The notes under the pieces: model-generated
Databases searched by the model: none
Told to the model about the DNA's origin: nothing
The model's input: the letters and a program-made list of their open reading frames with translations, nothing else
Assembly (NCBI GenBank): GCA_028869255.1
Contig: CP110972.1
Location: 3,291,001-3,355,000, forward strand
DNA from: Pseudomonas poae
Lineage (GTDB): Bacteria > Pseudomonadota > Gammaproteobacteria > Pseudomonadales > Pseudomonadaceae
Length of the DNA stretch: 64,000 nt
Reading direction: 5' to 3'
Shown here: piece after piece, positions 26,100-35,700 of the stretch
How the letters are laid out: the number at the start of each line of letters is the position of its first letter
How positions within the stretch are numbered: position 1 is the stretch's first letter
Program-made: the position numbers and the translations under genes

Positions 26100-27020
26100 C
26101 TATTCAAACGCCTGGCGATTCTCAGGCGTGATCAACTTGAACGGCACCCAGACCACCGTCGACTCCAGCACCTCCCCGCGTACCAGCCGTAGCGCGGTGT
26201 CCACTGCGCCACCGGCCTGGCCGGCGGCATCCTGAAACACGCTGACCGCCATCTTGCCCTCAGCCATCAATTTCAAACCGTCCGGGGTGCCGTCGATGCC
26301 GCCGACCCAATAGTCCTTGGCTTGCTTGCCGGCTTTTTCCAGCCCCATGATCGCGCCGATCGCCATTTCATCGTTATTGGCCGCGATGATCGAAAAATCG
26401 ACGCCCTGCTTGACCCAGTCAATGACAATCGTGGCGGCCTGGCTACGCTCCCAGTTACCGACTTTTTTCTGTACGACTTTCATATCGGGGTATTTGGCGA
26501 CGACTTTCTCCACGTCCTCGGTGCGCATCAAGGAGGACGCGTTGGCCGGGTCGCCCACCAGAATCACCACGTTGCCCTTGTAACCGGCGCGGCGCGCCAG
26601 CTCTTCCATCTGCAAAGTACCCGACTCCAGCTCGTTGGAGCCGACAAACGCGGTCTGCGCCGGCCACTGTTGCGGGTTCGGATTGCGGTTGACGAAGACC
26701 AGCGGGATTTTGGCGTCCGAGGCCAGTTGCATCATCTGCGCCGCACTTTTGCCGTCCACCATCGCGACGATGATCGCATCCACCTTGGAATTGACCAGGT
26801 TGCGGAATTGGCGCATCTGCAAATCGACGCTGTCCTGCCCGTTCTCCATAAAGATGTCGGCGTTCATGACGCTGGCCTGTTGCTGTACCCCGTTGCGCAG
26901 CAGGGTCTGGAAGTTATCGTCGTACTTTGCCATGCCAACGCCCAGCAAGGGCGTAGCGGCCTGGGCTGGGCCCGGAATGAGCAGCGTCGCCCCCAAGGCG
27001 AGGATTAACCATACTTTCAT
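26100..27020 (-). CDS. Orphan periplasmic sugar-binding protein paired with a chemoreceptor
   Basis: This 306-residue protein has a signal peptide (MKVWLILALGATLLIPGPAQA) and a type 1 periplasmic binding fold: LLGVGMAKYDDNFQTLLRNG, SVDLQMRQFRNLVNSKVDAI, IIAANNDEMAIGAIMGLEKA and GGIDGTPDGLKLMAEGKMAV. It is related to ribose/galactose-type binding proteins. AGGAG precedes the ATG at 27020. No ATPase or permease gene accompanies it. It lies 17 bases downstream of a chemoreceptor gene in the same orientation, so it probably presents its ligand to that receptor, as MglB does to Trg. The sugar is unknown. It is convergent with xylH, so a role in xylose use is possible but unproven. Confidence 0.85.
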   Translation of the reverse strand: MKVWLILALGATLLIPGPAQAATPLLGVGMAKYDDNFQTLLRNGVQQQASVMNADIFMENGQDSVDLQMRQFRNLVNSKVDAIIVAMVDGKSAAQMMQLASDAKIPLVFVNRNPNPQQWPAQTAFVGSNELESGTLQMEELARRAGYKGNVVILVGDPANASSLMRTEDVEKVVAKYPDMKVVQKKVGNWERSQAATIVIDWVKQGVDFSIIAANNDEMAIGAIMGLEKAGKQAKDYWVGGIDGTPDGLKLMAEGKMAVSVFQDAAGQAGGAVDTALRLVRGEVLESTVVWVPFKLITPENRQAFE

Positions 27021-27037
27021 GTTCTGACTCCTGCGGC

Positions 27038-29023
27038 TCAAACGCTGAAATGATGGAGCAGCTCGCGCTGCACCTTGGCCATGTCCGACAGCTCGTGGCT
27101 GCTGATGGCGGACTGCTCGGCGCCATTTGCCGTCTGCTGGGCCGAATCGTTGATCTGGATGACCATCCGACTGGTTTCCTGCACCGTGGCGCTCTGCTGC
27201 TCGGTGGCGGCGGCGATCTGAATATTCATGTCGCGGATACTGTCGACCGAGTCGCTCATCGACAGCAGCAAGTCACCCGCGCCCGAGGCCAGGGACACGC
27301 ACTGGGTGGACTGCGCCTGGCTCTCGTTCATCACATGCACCACCGAGTGAATCTTCTCCTGCATGAGCCCGATCATGTCCTGGATTTCGCTGGTCGAGGT
27401 CTGGGTACGGCTGGCCAGGGAGCGCACTTCATCGGCCACTACCGCAAAACCGCGTCCCTGCTCGCCGGCACGGGCCGCTTCGATCGCCGCATTCAAGGCA
27501 AGCAGGTTGGTCTGTTCGGCAATGGTGCGAATGGCGACAACAATGCCCTCGATATTCTGCCCGTACTTCTGCAACTCATCGGTTACCTGCGTGGCCTTGT
27601 TCACCTGGTCGGCCTGCTGGCGGATGTTGACGATGGTCTCGGCCACGCGCGCCTGCACCTTGTGCGTGAGTTCACTCGTGTCGTCCACGGCCTGGCGGGT
27701 GTCCTGTGCGCGCCGGGCCACCTCTTCGACCGTGCTTTCCATCTGCGTCATGGCCGAGGCGGCCGATTGCAATCGGTCCTTCTGCTCATCCACCACACGG
27801 GTGGTCTGCTCGCTGTTCAAGGCGTTGCTGCCCGCGGTAACGGCCAGCGCATCGGCAGAGCTGATCAATTCACGGAAGGTTTTCTGCAGGGCCTTGGTCA
27901 GTTCGTTCAGGTAGCCGCCCAACTCACCGAACTCATCTTTACGGCTGACATCGAAACTGACCCGCATGTCCCCCGCAGTAAGCGTCTTGAGGACTTCGCG
28001 AAACGCCGCCAGCGGACGCCGCAGGCTGAAGGCGACCCATGTACCAATCAACACCGCCGCCAGCACCGCAAGCACACACGCGATCAACAGCAAGCTGCGA
28101 CTGGTGCCGATAGTGGCATTGGCCGACTGACTGGCCTGGTTGGCGACTTCAAGGGACTGGCTGCCGAACTCGCCAATCCTGTCCAGGGTGGCTTTCAGCG
28201 CCGCCTCAACCGCATTGCGTTGCTGCTGCACCTGCGCGGCCAGTTTTGCTTCCACCTGATAAGCCTGGAACAGGCCGTCAGGGGCGGTCAGGTCAGTCAG
28301 CAGGCGATTGACCATGACGTCAGCAATCCGCCCGCCCCTGGGTTCAATCGCCGCCAGGGCCTGGGCCCGGGTGCTGATCACTTCGTCCTGCAGATTGAGC
28401 ACACGTTGTAATTTATCAATGGCGGGCGTGACGGTGTGGGCCGCGAAGCCATCGTAGGATTTGTTGACTTCCAACAGCAGCTTTTCCGCTGCGGCCACCT
28501 GTTGCGGCTCGCCGACACTGCGCGCATGCGCGATGTAATCGCGCAAATAGCTGGTCAGCTGCATCGCCTGCGCACTGCTGTAGCCTTGAAGTGTGCGCGT
28601 GAGCGCCAACTGCTGCACATGTTGCGAGTGGGACGCCATCAACGCCTGCGCCTGTTCGGCGTAGGCCGCTACCTGTTGGCGCTGCTGCGCCAGGTTCGCC
28701 CGCAGCGCCTCATGCTCGCCGGTATAGGCAACGGTGCTGTCGAGCAATTGATTGAACTGAGCGATGCTCTCGGTGAACGGTCGCTTGCCGTCCTCGATCT
28801 GCTTGGGGTCGGTGCTGATCTGAATGGCCAGCAACGCCTGGTTGGCGCGCAGGATGTGCACGTACAGCTCACTGGCGGCCCGGCTCAAGGGTGCCGACTC
28901 GCCGGTGATAATGGTCAAGCGACTGCTGATGGACTGCGTGTTCTGATAGCTGATCCCCGCCATGACTAGCAGTAACAGCACCAACACCGCAAACCCGCCG
29001 ATCACACGCTGCAATATGGTCAT
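27038..29023 (-). CDS. Methyl-accepting chemotaxis protein with long helical sensor domain
   Basis: This 661-residue inner-membrane chemoreceptor has TM1 at about residues 7-27 and a periplasmic region of roughly 275 residues that looks wholly helical, a size fitting a helical bimodular rather than a four-helix domain. TM2 lies near 308-330 ([20 protein letters not shown]), then HAMP and a signalling domain with [20 protein letters not shown]. The ATG at 29023 has AAGGGG before it; a GTG at 29029 is an alternative. It is the first gene of a two-gene unit with the sugar-binding protein at 26100. Confidence 0.9.
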
Positions 29024-29170
29024 GGCCACCCCTTTTGATTTTTATTCGTTGACCTGAGCGACGACCAGGCGTGTACCTACGAGCTCGGGATCACTCGTGG
29101 TGCTAATGCCTGTATCGGCCAGGTGGGCGGGGACTTGAGCGTTGAAGGCAGGCCGAAACGCGGCCAAAGA

Positions 29171-29366: not shown

Positions 29367-31445
29367 TTAGAATTCGCTGAAACGCAGCCCGGTCTTTTCC
29401 AGGCTGCCCTTCAGCAAACCGGCCTGGAAGCGGTGTTCGCCGTCGCTGTTTATCTCGGCAACCTGAACCAGATCGGGGATTCGGTCGCCAGTGATATCCG
29501 CCAGCACCATCTGACCGCCGCGAACGCGTTCGGCGTAGCGGCCGACGGCTTCCACCTTCGCAGCGCCGGAGGCCTTGCCGGCGTCGAGCCGCTCCTGTTT
29601 TGTCGAAAACCCTTTGAAAAATTCAGGATAGGCAGACATTTGCACGCCAGAATCGAGGCATGAATCAGCCGTCAGTGTGGCCACCGCGATTTCCAACTCG
29701 GCGCCCTGGGCCAGCGGATTGCTGTGTGTGTCGCTCACTCGCACGCGCGACAACACCAGGTAGCTCCTGCTTGCGTCGGAAAGATCCGGTACCAGATGAA
29801 CCGGGCGCTGCAACCAGGAAAGGGGCGCACCACGCAAGCACTCCAACGTGGCGGCCTTTAACTGCTCACCGTTGAGCACGGCTTTTTGCATCTGCAATTG
29901 GACCCCGCTGCCGCCCGCCATCACGCTCACAAATGTGGGGTTGGTCGCGGTTGCCTGGGTAACAAAAGCCGGCTCCATGGCCTCGGGGAATGCCTTGAGG
30001 GTTTGCTCGCCAAGGTTAGTGGCCACCTCTGTGCCGGGCTTTGCCACCGTGTAACGTCGCACCATCGCGCCGTCTTCATAGCCCTCGCCATTGCCGGTAC
30101 CTCGGCGCATCCAGAGCAAGAACGGTGGGGAAGCCTGGCCGACCACAAAAGGTGCGCCGACATAATTGCGATAGCGATCGCAGTGATCTTTTGACGTGTG
30201 ATCGTCCGGGTCGCTTATACAGTTGCGCTCAGCAATGCTGTACAGATGCCGGCCTGCAGGTGCTTCGCGAATTTGGCGCTGGGTTGTGTCAAACACTATA
30301 TCCACCACGCACGGCGAGCGGTCCTTGATGCCTTCACTCGGGCCGCAGGAATGTGTACTCAGGCCCATCAGCCGTACAAACCCCGGTGTGCTTGCGCCGT
30401 TGACCGGATGCACCTCGGAAAACTTGAGGTCCTGGTTATGGATGGCGAATGCCAGCGGTGCGGCAGCGGGCGCGGTGTCCCCCCTGCCCCACATCGCTGT
30501 GTTCTCGCAGTGCCCGGCAGGTGTGCGCAGTTGGATGCCCCCGGCCGCTTGCGCCCAATCGTTGCGGCTGGCCCAACCGGGAGGCAGCAGTGCGAAGCCG
30601 CCCGCAGTACCACTCAACTGGCTACGCTTCCACCACACAAACCAGTCTTTGCCGCCAGGCTCATCACGCACCACCATGGGTGGACCGTTGATGGCGTCAT
30701 ACGCGGCGGGCAATTCGAAGCTGGAACAAACCTGGCCACCCTCGGGTTTCCACCCCAGCACATGAACCAGGCTGCCCGAGGGCCGGATGTCGAAGTAGTA
30801 GGCCGCTTTCGGCAGCAGGCCCTCGTTAACCCACTGGCGCGGGGCATCGGCGATGCGCAGTACTCGGTGGGCATTGGCGCGCACCGGATAGGGATCGAAT
30901 TCCAGGAAGGTGGAGGCTTTTTCGTCTTCCGTTGCACGCGCGCTTTTAAAGCTGCCGAAGCCGCCCAAGCGCACACCCAGGGTGACCTTGCGCGCATTGG
31001 TTTCGCAGTCGCTGATGGTCGCGTTGGGGTTGATGTACTTGCACAACCGGAAGGCTTGCTGCTGCAACATGAAATCGCAGTCTGCCTGGCTGTAACCGTA
31101 GGTGGCATTGCCATGGCGGTAGCAGTAGTCATGAAAGGCACAGGCTTGGCGCATCTGTAAGGCAATAGGCGCCTGGTGGCTGCCACGGGTAAATGCCAAC
31201 GTCTGCAGGCCGGTCGGCAGGCTGCAACTCAGGCCGCTGCCTTGCCCCCCTACCAACTGCACTTGATCGGCAGAGGCCGAAAGCGCGTAGGCGGTACGGG
31301 GTGTTTCTCGGTCGTCAAAGCGCACTTCGTTGGCCAGCAGCGTGTCAGCGATGCCATTAAAAATACCGGAACAGCCAGTAACCGCCGTGGTCAGCACCAC
31401 TGCCAACATAGCCAGACCAAGGATGGACAGAGGGAGTTTGCGCAT
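29367..31445 (-). CDS. Large lipoprotein with phospholipase A2-like motif
   Basis: I do not recognise this 692-residue protein as a named family. It has a lipoprotein signal peptide (lipobox VTGC, lipidated Cys25, next residue Ser, which fits outer-membrane sorting). At residues 102-124 lies CAFHDYCYRHG, then YSQADCDF, which closely follows the phospholipase A2 active-site pattern C-x2-H-D-x-C-Y with later DxCD-type acid residues; His105 and Asp106 would be the catalytic and calcium-binding pair. The rest is rich in short strands and Trp/Gly turns, and LADITGDRIPDLVQVAEIN near the C-terminus resembles an FG-GAP repeat. AGGAAGG precedes the ATG. It is divergent from another large lipoprotein gene across 244 bp. 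A secreted or surface phospholipase is plausible but unproven. Confidence 0.7.
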   Translation of the reverse strand: MRKLPLSILGLAMLAVVLTTAVTGCSGIFNGIADTLLANEVRFDDRETPRTAYALSASADQVQLVGGQGSGLSCSLPTGLQTLAFTRGSHQAPIALQMRQACAFHDYCYRHGNATYGYSQADCDFMLQQQAFRLCKYINPNATISDCETNARKVTLGVRLGGFGSFKSARATEDEKASTFLEFDPYPVRANAHRVLRIADAPRQWVNEGLLPKAAYYFDIRPSGSLVHVLGWKPEGGQVCSSFELPAAYDAINGPPMVVRDEPGGKDWFVWWKRSQLSGTAGGFALLPPGWASRNDWAQAAGGIQLRTPAGHCENTAMWGRGDTAPAAAPLAFAIHNQDLKFSEVHPVNGASTPGFVRLMGLSTHSCGPSEGIKDRSPCVVDIVFDTTQRQIREAPAGRHLYSIAERNCISDPDDHTSKDHCDRYRNYVGAPFVVGQASPPFLLWMRRGTGNGEGYEDGAMVRRYTVAKPGTEVATNLGEQTLKAFPEAMEPAFVTQATATNPTFVSVMAGGSGVQLQMQKAVLNGEQLKAATLECLRGAPLSWLQRPVHLVPDLSDASRSYLVLSRVRVSDTHSNPLAQGAELEIAVATLTADSCLDSGVQMSAYPEFFKGFSTKQERLDAGKASGAAKVEAVGRYAERVRGGQMVLADITGDRIPDLVQVAEINSDGEHRFQAGLLKGSLEKTGLRFSEF

Positions 31446-31689: not shown

Positions 31690-33192
31690 ATGAATCTTTG
31701 CGATCATGGCCGCGACTGGCGCGCCCTCTTTGTCATTCTGGCCTGTGCGCTGTTGGCCAGTTGCATCTCGGTGCCCACGGGCACCACGCAGGTCTATCGC
31801 AAAGCCGACAACCCCGCTTCCGCACCCAATGCCGAGGGCAGGCAAGGCTTCGAAACGACCCTGTTCACCAATAATATCGACCCACTGTTGACCGTGCACA
31901 AAGCCGGCGGCGACAAAGCCAGCGACGATGTGTTTGCCATCTACTTGAGCGATGGCTATTTCAAGTACCTGAAGGATACGGGGGGCGTGAACGAAGTAAT
32001 CGTGGTGGCCGAGTTCACCGAGGTCAACGACGGTACCGCGTCCGATACCGTTACTCGCGTACTCGGCCCCTACTTCGGCGTATCCGACAAAGCCGGAACC
32101 CCCTTCCTCAACAAACTGCTCTACGGCCCAAAAACCCTCGAATCCGACCACCTCAACATGAAACTGACCGTGCTGGAATACGATCAGGGCGAGAATCAAA
32201 ACTCTGCGGCGTTCCTCGACTTTATCCAGTCCGTCACCCAGACCTTGTCCCTGGCCAACCCGGTCACCGCGGCCGAACAGGTGTTCGCCAAGGAAATTGC
32301 CAAAAGCCTGCTGAGTTTGAACAAAGATGATGTGGTCATGGAGATCGACATCAACTTCACCGGCAATACCGGGCAACTGGCCAATATTAAAAACAACGGT
32401 TCCTACATCCCCTTGAACATCGGCGACTATGTGCTGATCAACAAGGAACACTGCGTGCCGGCCAATTGCTATGGACGGATGGTAGCGGCAGACAGCCCGT
32501 ACAACCCCTTCGCCTGGATCGGCGATATTGTCATGCTGGTGCCTGCGGCCGTGCGCCGTGGCTTGGCGGATACGCCCGATGGTGCGGCATTGGCGGACGT
32601 CAACACGGAAAACCTGAATTACTCCAATCACCAACTCACCCAGCATCCAAAGGGTGCCGAGCCTGCACCCTTCGTTGACAAGACCTGGCTGGCCCTGTCC
32701 ATCGTCAAGGGCGGCGATGCTTCACTCTGGCAAAAACGCAAAGCGCTGACCCAGGCAGAACTCGCTGTGCAGAACATGATCAAGGTTCGCGGCGGCCCAC
32801 TTGCCTTCAGCCAGAATTATCAAACGGCAAGGCAAGCCCTGGAAGCGGCACGGGAGGCCGAAGTACTGAACAGTTCCGGCGTTGCCTTCGTTTCTCCCTT
32901 GAACGCTACCGGTGACTTTGCCCCCACCACTACCGACGGCGAGTACTGCGTATATCACTCGCGTACCGTTACCGAAGTGAGCGCCAGTGTTTACCGACTG
33001 GATGACAAGGAGGTGCCGCAGCAAGTGCCGGCTAACACCGTCACCAAAAACACCAGTACAGCGACGCCCAACAATACCTGTTTTGACATTGGGGCCGCAG
33101 CACGCGTGGCGGGCACTTATGACATGCTCGCGAGGTACAAGGTGGGAACGAAAGTGCTGAATCAGACGATCCGCTACGAAATCAAAAAATAG
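31690..33192 (+). CDS. Large lipoprotein of unknown function
   Basis: This 500-residue protein has a lipoprotein signal (FVILACALLASC, lipidated Cys25, lipobox LASC, next residue Ile). I see no known domain. The N-terminal half has alternating hydrophobic strands (NEVIVVAEFTEVNDGTASDT, HLNMKLTVLEYDQGENQN), a short helical part with SLANPVTAAEQVFAKEIAKS, and further strands (DDVVMEIDINFTGN). The C-terminal part has a helix (QTARQALEAAREAEVL) and a strand-rich tail. GGAGGAG lies before the ATG, and a strong terminator follows the stop. It is divergent from the phospholipase A2-like lipoprotein, so the two may act together at the outer membrane. Confidence 0.75.
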   Translation: MNLCDHGRDWRALFVILACALLASCISVPTGTTQVYRKADNPASAPNAEGRQGFETTLFTNNIDPLLTVHKAGGDKASDDVFAIYLSDGYFKYLKDTGGVNEVIVVAEFTEVNDGTASDTVTRVLGPYFGVSDKAGTPFLNKLLYGPKTLESDHLNMKLTVLEYDQGENQNSAAFLDFIQSVTQTLSLANPVTAAEQVFAKEIAKSLLSLNKDDVVMEIDINFTGNTGQLANIKNNGSYIPLNIGDYVLINKEHCVPANCYGRMVAADSPYNPFAWIGDIVMLVPAAVRRGLADTPDGAALADVNTENLNYSNHQLTQHPKGAEPAPFVDKTWLALSIVKGGDASLWQKRKALTQAELAVQNMIKVRGGPLAFSQNYQTARQALEAAREAEVLNSSGVAFVSPLNATGDFAPTTTDGEYCVYHSRTVTEVSASVYRLDDKEVPQQVPANTVTKNTSTATPNNTCFDIGAAARVAGTYDMLARYKVGTKVLNQTIRYEIKK

Positions 33193-33258: not shown

Positions 33259-34509
33259 TCACTGGCTCAATACCACATCACGCATTGCCGGGATGTAACC
33301 GTAGTCATAAGCCTCCTGTACAAACGAACGAGCGCCCTTCAACACGATCCGTACCGTCGGCGCTTCGGTGCCGCCGATGCGATAGTCGTCTCCGGTGGTG
33401 GGTACGCTGTCGATAAACGACGTCACCAGGCCGTTTGGCATTACGCAGTGGGAGTAAGTCTGGAACGGCTGCGAAGGCGGGTTGCCGAGTACCAGCCCCG
33501 ACGCATTCATCAGCGTGTAGGGGCCGAACAGCTGATCGCTGACGAACCCATAGACGCCATCCGGGCCAGTTACGCCGTCTGCATAGGTGAACTTGTGGCT
33601 GATGGTGAACAGGTAATACTTGTCGTCCTGGAACACATAGTGCGGCCGTTCGGTCTGGTCGTTCACGCCAACCGCGGTCACCAGCGGCGGCAGGATTTCC
33701 CATTCGTCACCGTTGAGGTCCTTGGCCACGGCGATGCCAATGCAACCCACTTGGTAGCGAGCACCGCCCACGTCCTCATGCCCCGGTGGCACCAGGCCGA
33801 TTTCGTTCGGACCCACTTCGTGAGTGCCGCGCTCGCCGGCCACATTGCCTTCGAACACCATGTACAACTTGCCATCTTTAGGGTCGATAAAGGGGCTCGG
33901 ATCGCGAAAGTTCCAGGTCGCATTCTGCGCTTCGGTTTGGTAATAAGTGCCGTCGGCGTCGAACAACGATTTGACCTGATCAAAACCCTGCAGGGTCACA
34001 CCGGTGTCCGAAGTGACAACCTGGCCCGTGACTTTGGCAATCGTGGCGCCCGGTGTGACACAGGTGTAGTACAGGTCGATATCGCCGTTGTTATTCAACA
34101 GGATCGGCGTACCCGCCCATTCCCGCGTAGTCGGTGAAACCCCTTCGGCCATCACGCGGCCGCCGAAGATCCAGTCCTTGCCGGTGCGCGAATACCAGTA
34201 GCAGATACGCGCATGGCCATGGCGGTCTTCCCAGTCGCGCTTGATGTCGTAACGGCCATCGGCATTGATGAATTGTGGATCATGGGGACGACGGTCGGCG
34301 GTCAGGGTGAAGATCACCGACCAGCCATTGACCGATACCACCGTGCCGTCCAGCTCACGCAAGGGCATGGTGTCCCAAATAAACACCGTGTCACTCATGA
34401 CAGGAAAGTCAGGACTCACTAACGGCTGTGTGGTCGTCGGGTCATTCTCATTAACTTTCAGCGCATCGGCCCGTGTCCAGCGAGTGGGTGTGTGATTCGC
34501 ATGTTTCAT
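33259..34509 (-). CDS. lsc: Levansucrase (GH68)
   Basis: This 416-residue enzyme splits sucrose and polymerises the fructose to levan outside the cell. GH68 residues are visible: the nucleophile Asp46 in FIWDTMPL, the transition-state Asp in FRDPSPF (about residue 203) and the acid/base Glu in TERPHY (about 287). There is no N-terminal signal peptide; the protein begins [20 protein letters not shown], as in other Pseudomonas levansucrases that are exported by a route not using a cleaved Sec signal. AAGGACA precedes the ATG. The AT-rich gap 34510-34761 has a palindrome (CAGCCATTTAATGGCTG at 34569) that may be a control site. A C-terminal relic of a paralogue lies at 29280. Confidence 0.95.
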
Positions 34510-34688
34510 GATGATGTCCTTTTACTGACGCTTTAGTGACAAGCGAAGATTAAATAGCACCTGACAGCCAGCCATTTAATGGCTGACTGAAAGAGCAAGA
34601 GATAGTTGGCTCTGCAAGTGCAAAACAAGGTTTAACATGCAAGCCGGCTTATCGCAACATGAAGAATTATTTAGATTACAAAGGCCAT

Positions 34689-34721
34689 CACTGTATTTAT
34701 ATCCTTGATATAAATACAGTG
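34689..34721. other. Perfect AT-rich inverted repeat
   Basis: CACTGTATTTATAT (34689-34702) is the exact reverse complement of ATATAAATACAGTG (34708-34721), with the spacer CCTTG. It lies between the pectate lyase stop and the levansucrase promoter. There is no T run on the minus strand, so it may be an operator or a weak terminator. Confidence 0.65.
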
Positions 34722-34761
34722 GCACCTGTAATAAATGACTGCTCGGTAGAAAGCTAGCTAA

Positions 34762-35700
34762 TCAACTACCGAACACCAGCGCCGCGGCTTGGGCCCCGGC
34801 ATTCTTCTGCGTAAAGTCCTTGGCTTGCGCCGCCGTCTTCAAGGTATAGGCGTAGTTGGAAGTTGCTGTCCATTGTGCTTTTGGCGACTTCTGGTTGGTG
34901 ATCGCCGGCACACTGTTTGTATCAGTGAATGTGCCGGTGCCTTTGTCATCCAACATGCCTTTGTTTTGGCTGCCTTCGCCAAAATAGTTGCTCTCAGACA
35001 GGATATTGGCGTTCTGTGCCAGGGTAAAACCGAGGTGAAAGTTATTGATGTAGTTGTTGTACACATGGAAATAACCGTAGCGCATCAAGCCGGGCGCACG
35101 CACTTCCATATTGTCGAAGCGGTTATGGCACAGCGTGAGGCGCGGGTAACCATTGAACTCCGCCTTATTGTCATCGGCCGGGTGACCGAAAATCAGGCCG
35201 TATTTGTGGTTGCCGAAGAAGCAGTTGCTGATGGTGGCGTAGTCGGCCTTTTCACCGATATACACCAGTTTGTCTTCACTGCCATCGGTGGTAGACCAGG
35301 TGTGGCCGACAAAAGAGCAATGGTCAATCCAGTATTTGCTGCCGTAGTTCAGGTAGACCTGAATATCGTCATTGGCCTTAATACTTGCCGAATGCTTGAA
35401 GATAATATTCTGCAGAATAATGTTCTGCGACTGCGCGGTTGCACGCAGGTGAATATTCTCCAGGGTACGGTTCTGGAAGGAACCAATCAGGGTCTTGTTG
35501 GCGCCCAGGTTCACTTTGGTCAGGCTCGAGGCCGAGATATTACTGTTGATCACCAGCACCCGAGGGGTGGTGTCACCAATATTGGCCTTGAGTTGATCGA
35601 GCGTGGTGATACTGACCACCTGGCCAGACCAGCCGCCGGTGACTTTTGCCGCAAGGGCGAAACCGGTCAGGCCGGTGAGTTTGCTTTCTGGATAAGACAT
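34762..35700 (-). CDS. Pectate lyase (PL1 family)
   Basis: This 312-residue right-handed beta-helix enzyme cleaves polygalacturonate by calcium-dependent beta-elimination. Family marks are KYWIDHCSFVGHTWSTTDGS (the WIDH stack and calcium acids) and RFDNMEVRAPGLMRYGYFHV with the RxPxxR catalytic arginine region. The N-terminus MSYPESKLTGLTGFALAAKV shows no Sec signal peptide, unlike most pectate lyases, so export (if any) must use another route. GAGGGAA precedes the ATG. It shares orientation with levansucrase; both act on plant carbohydrates. Confidence 0.92.
   Translation of the reverse strand: MSYPESKLTGLTGFALAAKVTGGWSGQVVSITTLDQLKANIGDTTPRVLVINSNISASSLTKVNLGANKTLIGSFQNRTLENIHLRATAQSQNIILQNIIFKHSASIKANDDIQVYLNYGSKYWIDHCSFVGHTWSTTDGSEDKLVYIGEKADYATISNCFFGNHKYGLIFGHPADDNKAEFNGYPRLTLCHNRFDNMEVRAPGLMRYGYFHVYNNYINNFHLGFTLAQNANILSESNYFGEGSQNKGMLDDKGTGTFTDTNSVPAITNQKSPKAQWTATSNYAYTLKTAAQAKDFTQKNAGAQAAALVFGS

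Follow-up and report, generated by a model that had tools for sequence, protein, structure and literature searches.

What does a phospholipase A2 (PLA2) active-site motif do on a bacterial lipoprotein? The question is raised by a gene of Pseudomonas poae (assembly GCA_028869255.1, contig CP110972.1), which occupies positions 29367..31445 on the minus strand of a stretch of 64,000 nucleotides, here called the window. Open reading frame (ORF) translation, family searches and structure prediction describe its 692-residue product, P0001, as a PLA2-propeller lipoprotein; the plus-strand reading of the same frame is interrupted by stops, and the true ORF lies on the minus strand. The gene is present as a single copy in its genome, and its product looks like a membrane-anchored, lipid-cleaving enzyme of the venom type joined to a propeller-shaped domain. 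On balance we favor reading P0001 as a membrane-held PLA2 with a role in envelope attack.

Identity of the N-terminal domain

The N-terminal part of P0001 is very probably a true PLA2-superfamily domain. An earlier interpretation made from the letters of the window (the sequence-only reading) had noted C-A-F-H-D-Y-C-Y at residues 102–109 and D-C-D at residues 122–124 as close to the PLA2 signature, near the N-terminus of a lipoprotein. Both motifs are present and near that signature, at 31119..31142 and 31074..31082 respectively (minus strand). They fall within a PLA2-like domain of residues about 60–165 (30951..31268, minus strand), which was recognized by a profile search against the PDB, Pfam matches of domain slices, the predicted structure, searches with the domain model, and alignment.

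Used alone, P0001 gave no match in Pfam (E ≤ 1), NCBIfam or the PDB sequences. A profile built from 13 sequences of the domain found the PLA2 of Streptomyces violaceoruber, 1faz, with an E-value of 0.003; the second and last row of this search was unrelated, at 1.7. The profile alignment pairs His105, Asp106 and Asp124 with His64, Asp65 and Asp85 of 1faz, and Cys102, Cys135 and Cys147 with Cys61, Cys96 and Cys107 (positions counted by hand from the alignment). When 13 domain slices were compared with Pfam, PLA2G12 (PF06951) matched weakly in 10 (best E 3.3e-5) and Phospholip_A2_3 in two (best E 2.4e-5), all under the Pfam cut-off, while the slice of P0001 itself matched PLA2G12 alone, with an E-value of 0.021 and 15.2 bits against a cut-off of 34 bits. 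We note that an unrelated Pfam model, EC042_2821, matched seven of the 13 slices (best E 0.034), and that full-length proteins gave weaker PLA2 matches (10/51 and 1/51 members). The model for prokaryotic PLA2, PF09056, had no match in P0001 at E ≤ 1 and none in 29 genomes including that of P. poae (searched at E ≤ 0.01). Three small PLA2-like proteins found by tblastn in gammaproteobacterial metagenome-assembled genomes (MAGs) form a bridge to known PLA2s: L015 exceeds the PF09056 cut-off (32.5 versus 29.4 bits), and L014 and L016 are slightly below it.

In the comparison with PLA2 folds that the sequence-only reading had called for, the first Foldseek row for the domain model is a PLA2, as are the first four rows of VIA-align. 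His105 and Asp106 lie in a predicted helix (residues 99–116), and Asp124 lies in another (120–138).

Conservation was counted over 103 aligned sequences from the 120 listed family proteins. His105, Asp106 and Asp124, the last of which may complete the catalytic dyad, are among 17 residues that are invariant in all 103 rows (R99, Q100, C102, H105, D106, C108, Y109, R110, H111, G112, T115, Y116, C123, D124, R133, C135 and C147). C74 is found in 101 rows, the other two being gapped. This residue belongs to a glycine-rich loop, QLVGGQGSGLSCS (residues 63–75; 31221..31259, minus strand), in which G66, G67, G69, L72, C74 and S75 are kept in 98–101 of the rows; the GGQGxGLSC stretch within it is conserved across the family alignment and is, judged from sequence, a candidate calcium loop. 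The motif is no chance match: an HD pair followed later by CD occurs in 119 of the 120 listed proteins, P0001 included, and the only protein that lacks the pattern, P0053, is a 469-residue piece that starts inside the later part. Mean pairwise identity is 83% over residues 96–135 and 64% over residues 60–164, compared with 32% over residues 190–691, so that conservation is highest in the N-terminal domain. The Cys108/Cys123 pair beside the dyad resembles a disulfide of animal PLA2s.

The best structural rows for the domain model are group XIV secreted PLA2s (S. violaceoruber 1faz and 1lwb, Tuber borchii 4aup, and also 8k1w and 7ygk; PF09056), which have in common with P0001 the CxxHD helix, the His/Asp dyad and the three aligned cysteines. 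According to PMC11525133, group XIV enzymes use the dyad and the adjacent Asp in catalysis. The differences are that solved group XIV chains have 112–125 residues, whereas P0001 is a long anchored protein with a strand-rich part, and that P0001 has two additional cysteines, C108 and C123. Group XII PLA2s, to which the PLA2G12 model belongs, also differ from P0001 in architecture. The Tox-PLA2 domains of polymorphic toxins share the PLA2 fold and the CxxH motif with P0001, as described in a survey (PMC3482391), but sit at the C-terminal end, after filamentous or repeat regions, whereas the domain of P0001 is N-terminal, by the anchor. We consider it likely that the PLA2-like domain is an active lipase.

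Membrane anchor and predicted propeller

Residues 1–25 (31371..31445, minus strand) form a signal peptide that ends in a V-T-G-C lipobox, in agreement with the lipoprotein assignment of the sequence-only reading. Cys25 would be the lipidated residue, and Ser stands at position +2, which under the lipoprotein sorting rule directs a protein to the outer membrane. P0001 would thus be exported by Sec, lipidated at Cys25 and probably sorted to the outer membrane. The earlier suggestion of an outer-membrane, surface-bound protein is plausible. Of the first 58 entries in the family list (P0001 and the piece P0053 included), 45 have the lipobox pattern, compared with 7 of the remaining 62. Some of the 13 proteins without it have a Cys near the lipobox position and two have Tyr instead; those distant members that were read have a hydrophobic N-terminal stretch and no lipobox Cys. 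Membrane anchoring seems to be common to the family, by two means.

The long strand-rich tail that had been described from the letters is borne out by structure prediction. Residues 190–692 (29370..30878, minus strand) are predicted to form a β-propeller, with seven blades by a hand count of strands, and the C-terminal part of the protein is probably propeller-bearing. The match is generic, in that the propellers of DDB1 and CPSF160 score 8.2–9.3. An FG-GAP-like repeat had also been suggested, and here the result is mixed: the stretch ADITGDRIPDLV in the last blade (residues 649–660; 29466..29501, minus strand) can be seen by eye as a weak motif, but P0001 has no Pfam match at E ≤ 1 to the repeats of the FG-GAP propeller family. 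Among 51 members scanned, FG-GAP was matched weakly in five and FG-GAP_3 in four (E ≤ 0.1).

Distribution of the family

When 5.8 billion proteins were searched, at least 129 family members came up, P0001 included. The figure is a lower bound, as scoring was confined to the 8000 candidates with the most words in common. Named sources are Pseudomonas, Hydrogenophaga, Methylobacterium, Sinorhizobium/Ensifer, Rhizobium, Mesorhizobium, Agrobacterium and Tahibacter, and the closest relative, 92% identical, is from Pseudomonas viridiflava (L002). With the domain alone as query, 32 short proteins were found at E ≤ 1, and some of these may be fragments. The family is sparse in each of the genome sets that were searched. 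Within Pseudomonas it occurs in 4 of 398 genomes, that of P. poae included, and two of the four match over the first 230–246 residues only. In the phylum set it is again found in 4 of 398 genomes, namely P. poae and three of one genus (g109); it is in 3 of 394 genomes from the taxonomic family of Sinorhizobium sp. 6-70 (that genome included), and only in the central genome for the families of Hydrogenophaga (1/299) and Belnapia (1/220). Loci L027–L032 align over the first 170–250 residues only, and their later parts may therefore not be the same. Relatives were found in 6 of 72,556 plasmid records, five of them from Sinorhizobium. A phage origin was considered and dropped, no relative being found in 112 pattern-matched viral-contig stretches or in 50,697 phage records. 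In Mesorhizobium alhagi, pieces of two or more PLA2-propeller genes are spread over three contigs (L038, L039 and L048); on the contig with L048 a Tle1-like gene is also present, at a distance of about 11 kb.

The sequence-only reading had called the motif rare in bacteria. This holds for the anchored long form, as the counts above show, but not for bacterial PLA2 domains in general, which the toxin survey reports from many phyla (PMC3482391). The novelty is a PLA2 domain in an anchored, probably propeller-bearing protein, whose family has no name in the databases searched: no Pfam domain stands among the 120 listed proteins, and those whose names can be read are called hypothetical or uncharacterized protein. 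One assay could therefore annotate the family. Among the papers listed by literature searches, none deals with a PLA2-propeller fusion. If our reading is correct, the PLA2 superfamily gains in Gram-negative bacteria an unnamed, membrane-anchored branch that bears a propeller.

Gene neighborhoods

Neighborhoods were compared in 13 lineages, with Sinorhizobium and genus g109 each counted once; L013 (Myxococcota, domain match only) and the small proteins L014–L016 are excluded from this count. The neighbor families were chosen after inspection, missing neighbors were judged by reading ORF translations, the background consists only of the copy numbers of three hydrolase families in nine genomes, and loci L005, L006 and L010 are cut by contig ends. 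On this basis, an envelope- or wall-hydrolase gene lies nearby in 6 of the 13 lineages (five without the chitosanase case below): 6 of the 10 outside Pseudomonas and none of the three within.

In Sinorhizobium a phage-type lysozyme gene is next downstream in all six loci examined (L007, L008, L009, L024, L025 and L026), and a Tle1-like lipase gene is upstream in two of them, with pieces in two more and none found in L007 and L008. Mesorhizobium alhagi has a class 3 lipase and a muramidase as neighbors; Belnapia has an SH3-VanY peptidase one gene away; Methylobacterium has an amidase with SH3 on the opposite strand, two genes away; in Hydrogenophaga a divergent Tle1-like protein adjoins; and in a Burkholderiales MAG a GH75-like chitosanase lies 35 bases downstream (PDB match with E 2.1e-9; its Pfam match is under the cut-off). 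The Hydrogenophaga neighbor is the sole Tle1-like gene of its genome, and the neighboring lysozyme is the sole phage lysozyme in both G786 and G1091. The Tle1-like neighbor in G786 is one of two such genes, and the Mesorhizobium muramidase is one of four. No recognized hydrolase neighbor was found in the other seven lineages (the window together with P. viridiflava, L028 and L029 of the same genus, Methylopila, Zavarzinia, Caballeronia and g109). A 321-residue neighbor in L028 was taken by eye for a zinc phospholipase C and dropped for want of Pfam or PDB support, Pfam having also been run on the same gene in L019. The gene that follows the PLA2 gene in Belnapia (L006, 2834–4003) has a weak relative in the same position in Zavarzinia (L012, 8139–8567; 29% identity, E 4.5e-9), with no Pfam family above cut-off.

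Proposed function

The reading of P0001 as a membrane-held PLA2 acting on envelopes draws support from the invariant dyad and Asp106, the profile match to 1faz, the matches to Pfam and of L015, and the PLA2s in the top structural rows. In the mechanism that we propose, the PLA2 domain starts about 35 residues past the anchor and would therefore lie close to the bilayer; the catalytic dyad would consist of His105 and Asp124, calcium would be bound by Asp106 together with the glycine-rich loop, and the sn-2 fatty acid would be released from phospholipids of a target membrane. The propeller may serve as a rigid platform for recognition or regulation. The likeliest role would be accessory envelope attack, either for antagonism or for a regulated lysis, and not the routine turnover of lipids, because of the sparse distribution and the low-copy hydrolase neighbors in 6 of 13 lineages; for antagonism or lysis as the biological role we put the chances as even.

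The neighborhood evidence calls for caution. The neighbor pattern is only suggestive because the families were picked after the fact. Methylobacterium (G1710) and the Burkholderiales MAG (G1711) carry Tle1-like and lysozyme genes on contigs other than that of the PLA2 gene, the Zavarzinia (G788) muramidase is about 30 kb from it, and the only muramidase matches in the P. poae genome are at 671–673 kb, far from the PLA2 gene. A further caution comes from TtaP, a DUF1353 protein of the typhoid toxin islet and a distant group XIV homologue with the dyad and adjacent Asp. PMC11525133 demonstrates that TtaP is a PLA2 and describes a muramidase in the same islet; deletion of ttaP is reported to have left every envelope property tested unchanged, which weighs against a plain lysis function for genes of this kind. 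TtaP differs from P0001 in having 125 residues, no overt secretion signal and no conservation of the group XIV disulfide cysteines, and no propeller is mentioned for it. PF09994, the catalytic domain of the Tle1 family of type VI lipase effectors, has no hit in P0001, nor in its genome at E ≤ 1e-5.

The gene sets of two Sinorhizobium plasmids suggest a broader but doubtful idea. On pSfreNXT3b of S. fredii the order is Tle1-like (annotated as DUF2235), PLA2-propeller, lysozyme, DUF1353 and caspase; the last two, identified by Pfam, come right after the lysozyme (L026, 12232–14496), and the DUF1353 protein is a possible PLA2, as the authors of the TtaP study consider likely for other DUF1353 proteins (PMC11525133). 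The same stretch of S. meliloti pSymA encodes a patatin-like protein, a caspase and a pYEATS protein. From these sets one might tentatively suppose a recurring, mix-and-match module of proteobacteria for envelope demolition on command, in own-cell death or the killing of rivals. In it the tethered PLA2 might be one arm, combined with a lipase (Tle1-like, class 3 or patatin), a PLA2 of the DUF1353 type and an enzyme that hydrolyzes peptidoglycan, plus a caspase in Sinorhizobium, and the Pseudomonas copy might be a lone member. The absence of the Tle1-like gene from two of the six Sinorhizobium loci argues against such a module, as do the distant genes of Methylobacterium, the Burkholderiales MAG and Zavarzinia. 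A caspase-like protein also lies about 4 kb from the PLA2-domain gene in L030 (13960–16269, minus strand) and matches that of S. fredii at 33%.

Three other explanations were weighed. PldA removes mislocated phospholipids from the outer membrane, and P0001 could be a housekeeping lipoprotein that does similar work with another fold. The lipoprotein signal and PLA2 active site suit this, as do the ordinary metabolic and transport genes around it in the window and the lack of a visible immunity gene; we nevertheless think it improbable, given the presence in so few genomes of the genus, the equally thin distribution elsewhere and the adjoining wall hydrolases or lipases in other lineages. The sequence-only reading had named eukaryotes as one possible target. 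A surface-displayed lipase or toxin for plant, fungal or other eukaryotic cells, in which the propeller would be an arm that binds sugars or proteins, appears similarly improbable, since the propeller match is generic and the peptidoglycan-hydrolase neighbors point to bacterial envelopes. Least probable is a PLA2-like scaffold that lacks lipase activity and uses its active site for binding or another reaction: no activity is known for the family, the invariant R110, H111, G112, T115 and Y116 exceed the needs of a dyad, and no counterpart was identified for the calcium carboxylate of the Streptomyces PLA2, but loss of the His or the Asp is frequent in PLA2-like proteins without activity, whereas here dyad and adjacent Asp are invariant. 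For our preferred reading, an anchored PLA2 in envelope attack, the neighborhoods, which associate part of the family with wall hydrolases and further lipases, provide a testable lead on envelope disassembly.

Other genes near P0001

A divergent gene for a putative 500-residue lipoprotein (31690–33192, plus strand), 244 bases from the PLA2 gene and without a Pfam match, was tried as a partner. It has 58 homologues, itself included, and all of those with a named organism are from Pseudomonas except one from a Gammaproteobacteria MAG. Of 28 compared sequences, the only ones that carry it are the window, P. viridiflava L002 and L045, a duplicate of L002, and it was excluded from the system because of this narrow occurrence. 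On the other side, at 26100–29029, two genes stand between the PLA2 gene and that of a transporter permease: one for a chemoreceptor of the MCP type (by Pfam) and one that resembles a periplasmic binding protein (by eye). No gene intervenes in P. viridiflava L002, where 35 bases separate the permease and PLA2 genes. Genes for a GH68 levansucrase and a pectate lyase lie next to each other at 33259–35700 (minus strand), with G+C contents of 58% and 52% compared with 61% for the window.
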